Virus record (IMG/VR): IMGVR_UViG_3300025301_000128
Location: 1-23,198 of that record
Direction: 5' to 3' (one strand)
From: a virus
Length of the DNA: 23,198 nt
Below the pieces are notes generated by a model. The model was not told the DNA's origin. It searched no databases and saw only the letters and a program-made list of their open reading frames with translations. Positions within the stretch are counted from its first letter, which is position 1. Every line of letters starts with the position of its first letter. Positions 1,252 to 11,335 of this stretch are shown here, one piece after another. The position numbers and the translations under genes were made by a program.

Positions 1252-1413
1252 TTAGTTGCAATTATTTTTATCTAAATCAATCGGTTTATCACTACCATAA
1301 AACCATATCCATGATGAAATTTTAGTTCCATCTTGAGTATAGGTGCATTTTTTGCCTACCGAGCAGGCGCTCAATGCGAATAATAGTGCGAGCACTAGAA
1401 ATAATTTATTCAT
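1252..1413 (-). CDS. small lipoprotein
   Basis: ATG at 1413-1411 follows a strong GAGGAG ribosome-binding site. The 53-residue product starts MNKLFLVLALLFALSAC: a lysine, a hydrophobic helix and a lipobox (LSAC, Cys 17), so signal peptidase II should cleave and lipidate it. About 36 residues remain, including two more cysteines (23 and 52) and an SSWIWFYG segment. The mature part begins CSVGKKCTYTQDG. Small phage lipoproteins can act as superinfection-exclusion factors or outer spanins. There is no matching inner spanin next to this one, so exclusion or another envelope role is the better guess. The start overlaps the preceding 37-residue gene by eight bases. Confidence 0.75.
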   Translation of the reverse strand: MNKLFLVLALLFALSACSVGKKCTYTQDGTKISSWIWFYGSDKPIDLDKNNCN

Positions 1414-1519
1414 TGGTCTCCTCTGTTTTTTCTTCTTCGTTTTTTATTTGACAACATGTACCTGAGTTTTCTTTTTCTTTGGTATGCATATTGCAAGTTC
1501 GTTTTTCTTCTATTGACAT
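1406..1519 (-). CDS. 37-residue Cys- and Glu/Lys-rich peptide, function unknown
   Basis: ATG at 1519-1517 opens MSIEEKRTCNMHTKEK..., ending at TAA 1406-1408. It has cysteines at 9, 22 and 23 and a histidine at 12, set in very charged sequence (Glu and Lys make up almost half). A GAGGA element sits nine bases before the start. An in-frame ATG nine bases earlier is too close to that element to be preferred. The gene starts ten bases inside the end of the metallothionein-like gene and ends inside the lipoprotein gene. Its Cys/His content suggests a possible metal-binding partner of the upstream gene, but this is weak. It may simply be a short leader-like frame. Confidence 0.5.
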   Translation of the reverse strand: MSIEEKRTCNMHTKEKENSGTCCQIKNEEEKTEETNE

Positions 1520-1656
1520 GAAAGACATTCCTCATTGTTTACAGTAGCTCCCTGCGGATTACAATTACATTTGGTGCAAGCACATACACCAGTAGAATCT
1601 GAATGTTCACCTACATTACAGTGACAATCACAAAAACAGTCTTTACACTTTGTCAT
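1510..1656 (-). CDS. metallothionein-like cysteine-rich protein
   Basis: ATG at 1656-1654, preceded by a GGAA element, opens a 48-residue protein with 11 cysteines, at residues 4, 7, 9, 11, 13, 25, 27, 30, 32, 44 and 47. The arrangement is two dense clusters, CKDCFCDCHC at 4-13 and CACTKCNC at 25-32, plus a final CLSC at 44-47. The CAC-x2-CNC block followed about a dozen residues later by a Cys pair resembles bacterial SmtA/BmtA metallothioneins, which hold Zn or Cd in a thiolate cluster. There is no hydrophobic leader, so a cytoplasmic metal store or buffer is likely. The start overlaps the 219-residue gene by 14 bases. Alternatives are an iron-sulfur or disulfide-rich peptide. Family assignment is inference; the cysteine pattern is directly seen. 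Confidence 0.7.
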   Translation of the reverse strand: MTKCKDCFCDCHCNVGEHSDSTGVCACTKCNCNPQGATVNNEECLSCQ

Positions 1657-2302
1657 TTTTAGTTTCCTCAATTCCGTAGAAGTACTTATCAGTATCTTCT
1701 GTTTTCCATTTACGACTATCTTCTACATTCCATTCAGAAGTTTGGACCTTCCAATCAAAAGGGATTTCATCCTTCACCGTGAAAGAGGGAATGCTCCAGA
1801 TTAGCCTATTGTTAGGTTGTGCTGCATAATTCCCCTCATCCAAGGCCATTATGTGCGCGCACTTATGTTCGTGCGGGATCTCCGAATGATCTGTGTCAAC
1901 TATATTACTCTCTGGATGAGCCCAGTCAACCGTAAAAAGGTACGCACCTGAGCGCCATTTTTTATCTTTGCCTATGAATTTACCGGACTGACCGTCCAAG
2001 ATGTCAAAAGCAGTAACGCTAGGATAGTAACTAAAGCAATTCCAAAGCTCCAGCTCGTCAAGTCGCATCCTAGGAACCTCTTTGACCTCAAAGCCTCTTT
2101 GTATAAATGCAGAGATCGGCAAACGGTAGAATACAGCTCCATTTTCCATAATTGCGTGAAAGAGTATTGGACGCCCTGTAATCGATGCGAAGCCAAAGAC
2201 AATGCAGTCTTCCACTTCTCCATGGTGTTCTTTAAGATCATAGAGATATTCTCTCCTGATCTGTGCATAGATCACAGGTGTGTTCGCGTTTAAATAAGCC
2301 AT
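1643..2302 (-). CDS. conserved-looking soluble protein of unknown function
   Basis: This 219-residue protein has no membrane segment and no catalytic motif I can name. It is rich in aromatic residues (many Trp, Tyr, Phe) and acidic toward the C-terminus, with an EHKCAHIMALDEGNYAAQ stretch around residues 144-161 that could bind a metal through His and Cys. The start at 2302 is preceded by GGAG about a dozen bases upstream. The 14-base overlap with the metallothionein-like gene downstream suggests they are translated together. Codon use appears somewhat less AT-biased than in polA, similar to the lysis genes, which may mean separate ancestry. A frame on the same strand ending in a hydrophobic segment is embedded here and I take it as a shadow. 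Confidence 0.6.
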   Translation of the reverse strand: MAYLNANTPVIYAQIRREYLYDLKEHHGEVEDCIVFGFASITGRPILFHAIMENGAVFYRLPISAFIQRGFEVKEVPRMRLDELELWNCFSYYPSVTAFDILDGQSGKFIGKDKKWRSGAYLFTVDWAHPESNIVDTDHSEIPHEHKCAHIMALDEGNYAAQPNNRLIWSIPSFTVKDEIPFDWKVQTSEWNVEDSRKWKTEDTDKYFYGIEETKNDKV

Positions 2303-2426: not shown

Positions 2427-4277
2427 CTAATGTATTTCCCCCCAGTTGGTCCCTGATTCATAGTCTACCTTATTAGGTATCTCAAGTTCAACTGCTGATT
2501 CCATTATTTCAACAATACGTTTAGCTTCTTTATCATCTTTTACAGAAATGTCTAGTTCATCATGAATCTGAATATGAGGAACAATGCCTTCTTTATACAG
2601 TTCTAACATACATTTTTTTGTCATGTCCGCCGCTGATCCTTGAATTAATTTATTTAAAGATTTGTAGGTAAAAGCTCTTTTAATGCCTGGGCCATGTTCT
2701 AGTATGGCTTGTTCATGAGGAAGAGCTTTATGAATTCCAAAATAGTTAGGTTCCCATAAATGGAAACGACAAAGACGACCCAGTAAAGTACGAATTTGTC
2801 CTCGTTGCTGTGCTCGTTGCGATACAGCATTCATTAATTGTTTAACAAAAGGAACTTTAGAGTGATACGTTGCAAAAAGATTTTCTGCTTTTTCCTGACT
2901 AACTCCTAGTTCTGCTTGAAGTTTTGCTTTTCCCATTCCATAAAATAATCCTAGATTAATTACCTTAGCTTGTGTTCGAGGTATTTGTGCCATGTCTGCT
3001 ACAATTTTATGAAAGTCAGCGTTGCCTTCTTTATAAGCGTCCACGACAGTGAAGGCGGAAGGCAACTGCTGAAGAGATGCATAGTGTACAACCAACCTTG
3101 GTTCTTGTTGGTTATAATCAAAGCATCCCCACACACAACCTTCTTCGGGAATGAATAGGGATCGAATCATTGGTCCGAGATCTTTGTTACGTGCGGGAAT
3201 CTGTTGTAAATTTGGATTTGAATATGAAAATCTTCCAGTGACAGTGCCACCTTGATCAGATCTTATTTGATTAATGTCTGCGTGGATTCTGCCTTTATGT
3301 TCATGTTTAATAATAGTGTCTATAAAAGTTGTATGAGCCTTGTTTATTTCTCTAGCTTTTGCTATTTTCTTGACTAAAGGATGACTATGGAAGGAAAGAA
3401 AGTTTTTTGTAAATGAAGGGGCCTGTGTTTTCGCTGTTCTTTCATAAGATAATTTTAATGTGTCAAAAACTTTGGCAATTGATCTTGCAGCCCATATTTG
3501 AGCATCTACTTGTGTTTCTTTTTTTATTTCTTGCAACAATACTTTTTCTTCTGCAAGTAATTTTTTTTTCAACGCGTGAGCTTTTTCAACGTTTACTCGC
3601 ACACCTTTAAATTTCATATCTACTAAGCAAGGAAATAAATCTGATTCAAGTTCAAAAATAGATTCTAGATCCTGGTTGCTTAATTCTTGTTTCAATTTTT
3701 TCCATAACTGATACGTGACTTCCGCATCTCTTTCTGCATAAGTGCCTACATACATGGCTGGTAGTCTCCACATCTCGGCTTTAGGATCAATTCCCCATTC
3801 TTTTGCTCCGGCAATTAAAGCGCCTTCATCTTTTCCATAGCCGATATACTCACGACCTAAACTATTTAAATCATAGCGCATTCGATTTTCATTAATTAAA
3901 GATGCAGCGGTCATGGTGTCCACGATGTCTCCTTTAATTTCTATTCCCATGGCACGAATCCAACAAATATCATACATGGCATTATGAAAAATTTTAAGAG
4001 AAGAAGATTTACAAAGCTTCGTAAACCATTGAATTACCTTAGTTTTTTCTAAATTTCCTCCTCCTTCATGATCAAAAGGAAAGTAGCCTTTATAGTCTTC
4101 GCTTGCAACAGAGATACCTACGACTTTTCCATTTCCAATAACGGATCCTGATCCTCTTGTTTTTAAATCAGGATCTGAAGTTTCTAAATCGATAGCAACT
4201 TCTTGGCGGTTAGTAAGATCAGGAAATTTTTCTGGCTTGACCCATTCGGTTTGAGGTTTGAATAAAGGAATTTGCAT
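2427..4277 (-). CDS. polA: family A DNA polymerase with 3'-5' exonuclease
   Basis: This 616-residue enzyme copies the phage genome. The N-terminal half is a DnaQ-like proofreading exonuclease: Exo I has D30 and E32, Exo II is N99-x3-D103, Exo III is Y180-x3-D184. The polymerase domain follows: motif A holds D387 in DYNQQEPR, motif B is R434-x3-K438-x3-L442-x3-Y446-G447, and motif C is H572-D573-E574. The position equal to Phe762 of E. coli Pol I is Leu442. It is shorter than T7 gp5 (704 residues) and lacks a 5' nuclease domain. The ATG overlaps the DUF3310 stop codon by one base after a GAGGAAAA site. All catalytic residues are present, so it should be active. Confidence 0.97.
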   Translation of the reverse strand: MQIPLFKPQTEWVKPEKFPDLTNRQEVAIDLETSDPDLKTRGSGSVIGNGKVVGISVASEDYKGYFPFDHEGGGNLEKTKVIQWFTKLCKSSSLKIFHNAMYDICWIRAMGIEIKGDIVDTMTAASLINENRMRYDLNSLGREYIGYGKDEGALIAGAKEWGIDPKAEMWRLPAMYVGTYAERDAEVTYQLWKKLKQELSNQDLESIFELESDLFPCLVDMKFKGVRVNVEKAHALKKKLLAEEKVLLQEIKKETQVDAQIWAARSIAKVFDTLKLSYERTAKTQAPSFTKNFLSFHSHPLVKKIAKAREINKAHTTFIDTIIKHEHKGRIHADINQIRSDQGGTVTGRFSYSNPNLQQIPARNKDLGPMIRSLFIPEEGCVWGCFDYNQQEPRLVVHYASLQQLPSAFTVVDAYKEGNADFHKIVADMAQIPRTQAKVINLGLFYGMGKAKLQAELGVSQEKAENLFATYHSKVPFVKQLMNAVSQRAQQRGQIRTLLGRLCRFHLWEPNYFGIHKALPHEQAILEHGPGIKRAFTYKSLNKLIQGSAADMTKKCMLELYKEGIVPHIQIHDELDISVKDDKEAKRIVEIMESAVELEIPNKVDYESGTNWGEIH

Positions 4278-10870: not shown

Positions 10871-10893
10871 CAGTAAAATTTTTTATTTTACTG
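10871..10893. terminator. AT-rich hairpin between the convergent helicase and Hsp20 genes
   Basis: CAGTAAAAT (10871-10879) pairs with ATTTTACTG (10885-10893) around TTTTT. It starts 33 bases after the helicase stop codon and includes the Hsp20 stop codon on the other strand. The nine-pair stem is AT-rich and the following T tract is short, so it is a weak but plausible bidirectional terminator. Confidence 0.4.
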
Positions 10894-11335
10894 TTATTGT
10901 CTTCGGCTTTTTGCCCTCAGGAACTATCTTTTCTAAAGATATTTTCAATAATCCGTTTTTTAACTCAGCACCTTTGATTTCTACATCATTAGCGATAGTA
11001 AAGGCTTTAGCAAAAGATCTCTTAGCAATTCCTTGATGGATCACGCCGTCTTTTTCTTTATCGGATTTAGTTTCCTTAACAGATTTTATAGTTAGTATGC
11101 TATCTGCGTATTCTACAGCAATGTCCTTCTTGTCATAACCTGCGAGAGCTACTTCAATATCGAACTTATTGTTTTCCTTTTTTACAATATTGTAAAAAGG
11201 AAAGTTAGCTGTCAACGAAGACCGAACATTGTCGTACTCATCGAAAAAATTTTCGAAGTGATCGAAAAGATTATCGAACCCGATTGAAACCGGTCTAAGT
11301 TGTTTAAAGATTGATGGTAATTTATCGAATGTCAT
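10883..11335 (-). CDS. small heat-shock protein, Hsp20/IbpA family
   Basis: The 150-residue protein has the IbpA-type order: an N-terminal aromatic arm with FDNLFDHFENFFDE (20-33), FPFYNI (45-50), the alpha-crystallin domain with FDIEVALAGYDKKDIAVEY (58-76), GIAKRSFAKAFTIANDVEI (102-120), and the end of the fold NGLLKISLEKIVPE (127-140). The tail KTITVK holds the short I-x-V motif that docks between subunits. It should act as an ATP-independent holdase that keeps unfolded proteins soluble, perhaps during virion assembly or host stress. Hsp20 genes are known in several marine phages. AAGGAGG precedes the ATG. A weak hairpin (ATGGAT 11364-11369 with ATCCAT 11379-11384, then TTTATTAA on the minus strand) sits upstream, so it may have partly independent expression. 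Confidence 0.95.
   Translation of the reverse strand: MTFDKLPSIFKQLRPVSIGFDNLFDHFENFFDEYDNVRSSLTANFPFYNIVKKENNKFDIEVALAGYDKKDIAVEYADSILTIKSVKETKSDKEKDGVIHQGIAKRSFAKAFTIANDVEIKGAELKNGLLKISLEKIVPEGKKPKTITVK

Follow-up and report, generated by a model that had tools for sequence, protein, structure and literature searches.

A predicted phage-encoded metal-thiolate mini-protein and its overlapping partner gene in a probable SAR11 phage

The locus and the reality of the 48-residue gene

The window, that is, the whole stretch of DNA that we analysed, comprises 23,198 nucleotides: positions 1 to 23,198 of the IMG/VR virus record IMGVR_UViG_3300025301_000128. The gene under study lies on the minus strand, with the following neighbours and signals:

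1252–1413, minus strand: small lipoprotein-like gene, frequently found downstream of the gene pair
1406–1519, minus strand: partner mini-gene (start codon 1519–1517), 37 amino acids, MSIEEKRTCNMHTKEKENSGTCCQIKNEEEKTEETNE, with the motif CxxH...GxCC
1510–1656, minus strand: metallothionein-like gene (ATG 1656–1654, coding 1513–1656, TAG stop 1512–1510)
1666–1669, minus strand: Shine-Dalgarno-like GAGG, 9 bases 5' of the ATG
1643–2302, minus strand: upstream 219-amino-acid gene (phrog_3704), a conserved neighbour
2427–4277, minus strand: DNA polymerase A, a conserved neighbour

The metallothionein-like gene encodes MTKCKDCFCDCHCNVGEHSDSTGVCACTKCNCNPQGATVNNEECLSCQ, a product of 48 amino acids with 11 cysteines (positions 4, 7, 9, 11, 13, 25, 27, 30, 32, 44 and 47) and two histidines, and with a putative metal ligand set of C4, C7, C9, C11, H12, C13, H18, C25, C27, C30, C32, C44 and C47. 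A preliminary description, made from the sequence alone, had correctly placed this frame at 1510–1656 and counted its 48 residues and 11 cysteines; we add the strand. Its observations on the context hold as well: the start of the gene overlaps the upstream 219-residue gene (1643–2302) by 14 bases, no signal peptide is visible in the protein, and the start codon is preceded by an initiation element, namely the GAGG listed above, as judged from the window together with the upstream sequences of relatives.

The frame is a real gene under strong purifying selection and not a product of chance. The most cysteine-rich 48-codon open stretch of the window contains 11 cysteines, as compared to at most 8 in 100 mononucleotide shuffles. 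For codons 2–42, comparison of 44 distinct close relatives gives a dN/dS of 0.13, and in the 11 ligand codons pN is 0.000 at a pS of 0.40, with zero amino-acid changes. Overlapped as it is at both ends (by 14 and 10 bases), the frame might be taken for a non-gene, or for something that arises merely from its overlapping neighbours, but this is hardly credible: strong purifying selection also acts on the codons outside the overlaps, and contexts that have neither neighbour retain the gene.

The window’s DNA polymerase A is 61–64% identical to the polymerases of HTVC027P and 023Pt_psg01, which places the window phage close to the HTVC023P/HTVC027P-type pelagiphages. Many records of cyanophages and pelagiphages label the phrog_3704 family PurM or ferredoxin; the window’s phrog_3704 protein matches nothing in Pfam and lacks a cysteine cluster, and these labels look like propagated misannotation. 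Nearby, at 584–832 on the minus strand, lies a gene for an 82-residue zinc-ribbon-like protein that is conserved in the same phages, making the region rich in small metal-site proteins. Elsewhere in the window (10883–11335, minus strand) is a small heat-shock protein gene, read from the sequence as Hsp20-like, whose relatives are found close to metallothionein-like genes in other marine phage contigs too.

Family size and ligand pattern

Querying IMG/VR with the single window protein yielded 51 relatives, a second query with a pelagiphage copy yielded 39, and an alignment query yielded at least 181 confirmed relatives; a DNA pattern specifying the ligands only matched at least 120 stretches. 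The loci that we collected hold 189 distinct core-to-stop proteins. The family core pattern is CxxCx[C/H]xCHCx4-6[H/C]xDxxGxCxCxxCx[C/H], to which most window-type members add a C-terminal ECxxCQ that completes the 13 ligands. In the IMG/VR relatives the cysteine spacing is conserved and the frame is not disrupted, two points that the preliminary description had singled out as decisive. Among 75 diverse members C4, C7, C11, H12, C13, C25, C27 and C30 are invariant, and H18, D20, G23 and C32 almost invariant; K3, which like D20 and G23 is not a ligand, is also almost invariant. Conservation of CxxC and CHC is partly built into the searches, that of C25–C30 much less so, and the independent evidence therefore lies in the second half of the protein and in the exchanges between cysteine and histidine.

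Such exchanges occur at three ligand positions. Among 120 proteins, position 9 is Cys in 89 and His in 31, position 18 is His with one Cys, and position 32 is Cys with five His. The exchange preserves a sum near 13, as in the commonest combination of 11 Cys plus 2 His (93 proteins) and in 10 Cys plus 3 His (18 proteins); 8 Cys plus 4 His, also among the commonest totals, is found in 28 proteins, and 8 Cys plus 3 His in 22. Unchanged ligand codons combined with Cys/His swaps that keep the sum near 13 are the signature of a metal site: exchange at fixed positions is the behaviour of metal ligands, unlike that of disulfide-forming or structural cysteines. Taken together with the ligand-sparing selection and a composition rich in cysteine and poor in hydrophobic residues (21.6% Cys, 5.3% His, and 3% for F, W and Y combined in the family), this makes a phage-encoded metal-thiolate protein a well-supported prediction.

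The ECxxCQ motif sits at the extreme C-terminus, separated from the core by a linker of variable length, and persists whether or not the partner gene is present. We rejected the explanation that it is conserved merely through its overlap with the partner’s start, since 52 ECxxCQ-tailed proteins have no overlapping partner gene. A strict coupling between Cys at position 9 (the C9 type, as opposed to H9) and the tail was also dropped: near-perfect in the first 120 proteins (88/30 versus 1/1), it is broken in the wider sample by 11 C9 proteins without ECxxCQ and 11 H9 proteins with it. That ECxxCQ stays fixed to the C-terminal end across variable linkers, and that the partner carries CC motifs, could point to a Cu(I) or redox protein, in which the thiolates bind copper or buffer thiols and ECxxCQ is a redox or hand-over motif. 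We consider such a function improbable: the conserved histidine ligands and the Cys-to-His swaps favour Zn(II) over Cu(I) on general bioinorganic grounds, and the model of the copper metallothionein MymT finds no match in the family.

Some contigs carry two metallothionein-like genes (L070 7081–7212; L166 8027–8173; L023 3122–3265 and 4683–4805). In L070 and L166 the second copy is divergent, reading CxxCxCxCHC...HSTWGGPPS... with a long loop.

Relation to known metallothioneins and zinc fingers

The phage protein has the traits of metallothioneins as a functional class: low mass, 11 cysteines among 48 residues in CxC and CxxC arrangements, and few aromatics. The preliminary description had gone further in likening it to SmtA/BmtA and naming PF02069 as the family to compare. 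However, PF02069 matched no tested member, with zero hits among 19 aligned and 7 diverse family members at E values up to 10, whereas SmtA, the positive control, scored 1.7e-20; comparison of the family with an SmtA/BmtA alignment by hhalign gave a probability of 4.4% over 15 columns, covering the CxCxxCxC block only. Nine family members likewise found no match in NCBIfam, including the MymT model NF052418 (6.2e-29 for MymT itself), and hhalign against MymT gave a probability of 0.9%. The SmtA and MymT control sequences were confirmed by their profile matches, SmtA also by PDB entry 1jjd. With the controls working, we rejected homology to SmtA/BmtA and to MymT alike. What survives of the earlier reading is the local CxCxxCxC spacing and, through the selection, swaps and composition described above, the metal-thiolate kind of the protein; the SmtA/BmtA family assignment does not. 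As judged by these sequence comparisons, the protein is metallothionein-like yet a member of neither the PF02069 nor the MymT family.

The phage family and SmtA/BmtA (SmtA structure 1jjd; related metallothionein structures 6gv6, 6gv7 and 6grv) are both small, cysteine-rich and leaderless, with a few histidines, a CxCxxCxC block and a similar number of ligands. They differ in the order of the blocks, which in the phage family is CxxCx[C/H]xCHC first, CxCxxCxC second and ECxxCQ at the C-terminus, as well as in spacing, in the phage-only occurrence and in the overlapping partner gene. With MymT the phage family shares the small size, the richness in cysteine and a CHC motif, and it is separated from it by the negative profile results above.

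Other resources gave no above-chance relative. The sole weak Pfam match was to GASA, a plant cysteine-rich family (E 0.042, far below its cut-off), PHROG returned chance-level matches only (best E 0.054), and the family profile matched no PDB sequence. AlphaFold2 models built from two alignments had low confidence (pLDDT 62 and 67) and no regular structure, and Foldseek found no match for the second of these low-confidence models; we take these structural results as speaking neither for nor against a metal cluster. In the open-licence literature we found no report of a phage or viral metallothionein.

In HTVC027P-type phages the slot after the phrog_3704 gene is filled by a different gene, gp12 (L169 6641–6799), which has 34 IMG/VR relatives (L174–L207) and is weakly similar to families of Lar-like restriction-alleviation proteins (best E 8e-4). 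Gp12 resembles the phage family in its position and in being a small Cys/His protein, but it differs in having a zinc-finger-like CxxC...CxxC arrangement, a hydrophobic C-terminal end and far fewer cysteines. We rejected it as a homologue, as there is no profile match, and regard it as a positional counterpart only.

The gp12 case bears on a different reading of the 48-residue protein: a zinc-finger-like mini-domain with two or three structural zincs, whose task would be to bind nucleic acid or a host protein, for instance in host takeover or anti-defence, rather than to store metal. Gp12, zinc-finger-like and weakly Lar-like, occupies the same slot, and in T7-like pelagiphages the metallothionein-like gene stands directly before the capsid gene. 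Moreover, conservation extends past the ligands to D20, G23 and the motifs CHC and HxD; the conservation of K3, D20 and G23 exceeds what a loose metal sponge needs and is compatible with a defined zinc-finger-like mini-fold. While this is the main counterpoint to a metal-cluster protein, we regard the mini-domain as unlikely: a 48-residue chain with 11 cysteines, recurrent CxC and CxxC, 13 ligands and a scarcity of hydrophobic or aromatic side chains fits a metal cluster better, and no zinc-finger family in Pfam, NCBIfam or PDB matches the phage family in sequence.

Partner gene, distribution and proposed role in SAR11 infection

The partner’s start codon falls within the 3' end of the metallothionein-like gene, and the two genes share 10 bases. 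The window’s partner is 37 amino acids long and others reach about 70; residues C9, H12, G20, C22 and C23 are invariant in the aligned set, and there is no match to it in Pfam families or phage records. Of 256 loci, 103 have it downstream of the metallothionein-like gene, in 98 cases with the identical 10-base overlap, and it accompanies only C9-type genes; as some contigs are counted twice, these figures are loci and not independent phages. A search with the partner alone gave 224 confirmed relatives, for which 80 loci were kept. One of these is cut by the sequence end, and in all of the 79 assessable loci a metallothionein-like gene lies immediately upstream. This one-way linkage, with the partner never alone and the first gene often alone, suggests an accessory that would act on or with the metallothionein-like protein.

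Four annotated phage records carry the family: the isolated Pelagibacter phages Gjalp, Eyrgjafa and HTVC041P, and the uncultured Chosvirus KM23C739. The gene is annotated as a hypothetical protein in Gjalp and Eyrgjafa and has no annotation in HTVC041P and KM23C739; the capsid gene follows it directly in all four. In the sampled environmental contigs, 15 places are in a T7-like capsid module, 32 are near other shared genes (hsp20, M15 and two small-gene families), and 166 adjoin DNA polymerase A or the phrog_3704 gene, which is also the arrangement in the window. Both C9 and H9 types are present in each of these three contexts, which suggests that the gene has been exchanged between phage lineages; the copies in HTVC041P and Eyrgjafa are of the H9 type. 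Several related phages, HTVC027P and 023Pt_psg01, have no match to the family profile, and the gene is thus not essential for this phage type.

The family looks virus-only. No relative turned up when 84,980 species of bacteria and archaea were first scanned; a degenerate DNA pattern run on the same species gave one match, on a contig of the uncultured Pelagibacteraceae isolate RIS_SAG_32. This contig has the gene order of the window (polymerase, phrog_3704 gene, metallothionein-like gene, partner), indicating a phage inside, or associated with, a SAR11 cell and supporting a SAR11 host; the window phage probably infects SAR11 bacteria. The family occurs in one of 297 Pelagibacteraceae genomes, as the phage contig of a SAR11 assembly. 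PF02069 was found in none of the 297 (the Synechococcus elongatus control was positive), a result that holds for the set and not for each genome, and SAR11 hosts appear to be without a bacterial metallothionein of known type. The preliminary description was incomplete in this respect: neither the virus-only distribution nor the partner gene figured in it, and both are new here, as is the occurrence in at least three phage gene contexts.

The explanation that we favour, and consider probable, is a metal-cluster, metallothionein-like protein of a separate virus-only family with a metal role in SAR11 infection. This small cytoplasmic protein would fold only around metal, its ligands forming one Cys/His cluster. 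Metallothionein clusters of SmtA and Pseudomonas are of the Cys9His1-2 type. From 13 ligands in 48 residues, and by analogy with SmtA and the Pseudomonas metallothioneins, which bind three to four metals (PMC7387436), we infer that the cluster may accommodate Zn(II), by estimate three or four ions, or else several ions of Cu(I). In the window’s branch the protein is probably co-made with the overlapping mini-protein, whose single CxxH...GxCC site could accept, donate or cap metal. The most likely role would be to capture zinc or copper freed by host takeover and then to buffer or supply it; the phage could benefit by catching the metal of the dismantled host, by avoiding mis-metallation or by supplying phage zinc proteins, for which the preliminary description had suggested the endolysin. 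Infection by HTVC027P, which itself has no family match, raises host zur expression, treated under iron uptake in that paper (PMC12753301), and this makes metal handling in such infections at least plausible. More tentatively, and with somewhat less than even confidence, we propose that a metallothionein family confined to viruses, of an origin separate from the cellular families and spread over several marine phage lineages, forms with its co-translated CxxH...GxCC partner a two-component system for metal capture and transfer, through which phages control zinc or copper in SAR11 cells lacking a bacterial metallothionein.

SAR11 are among the ocean’s most abundant bacteria, and their phages among the most abundant viruses. 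If the proposal is true, and a common phage gene absent from the host handles metal, phages would come equipped to manage trace metals themselves when infecting in metal-poor water. The size of the two mini-genes allows direct expression and testing, and with them a family that had gone unannotated even in Pelagibacter phage isolates gains a name and a function open to test.

The start of the gene varies between phages. In T7-like pelagiphages it often has no ATG (L054 3983–4150, L061, L062, L223, L249, L268, L311) and overlaps the preceding gene, the likely start being TTG. In HTVC023P (MN698239.1; L398, about 2645–2750) an unannotated cysteine-rich frame, ...TFCFECHHDCHCDKICPKCSCYTCNN, directly follows the phrog_3704 gene; it lacks an ATG, its resemblance to the family is limited to motif and position, with no profile match, and a rare start or a frameshift possibly allows its synthesis. 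The frames of L058 and L060, again among the T7-like pelagiphages, stay open back to an upstream ATG, as though an N-terminal extension had been fused on.
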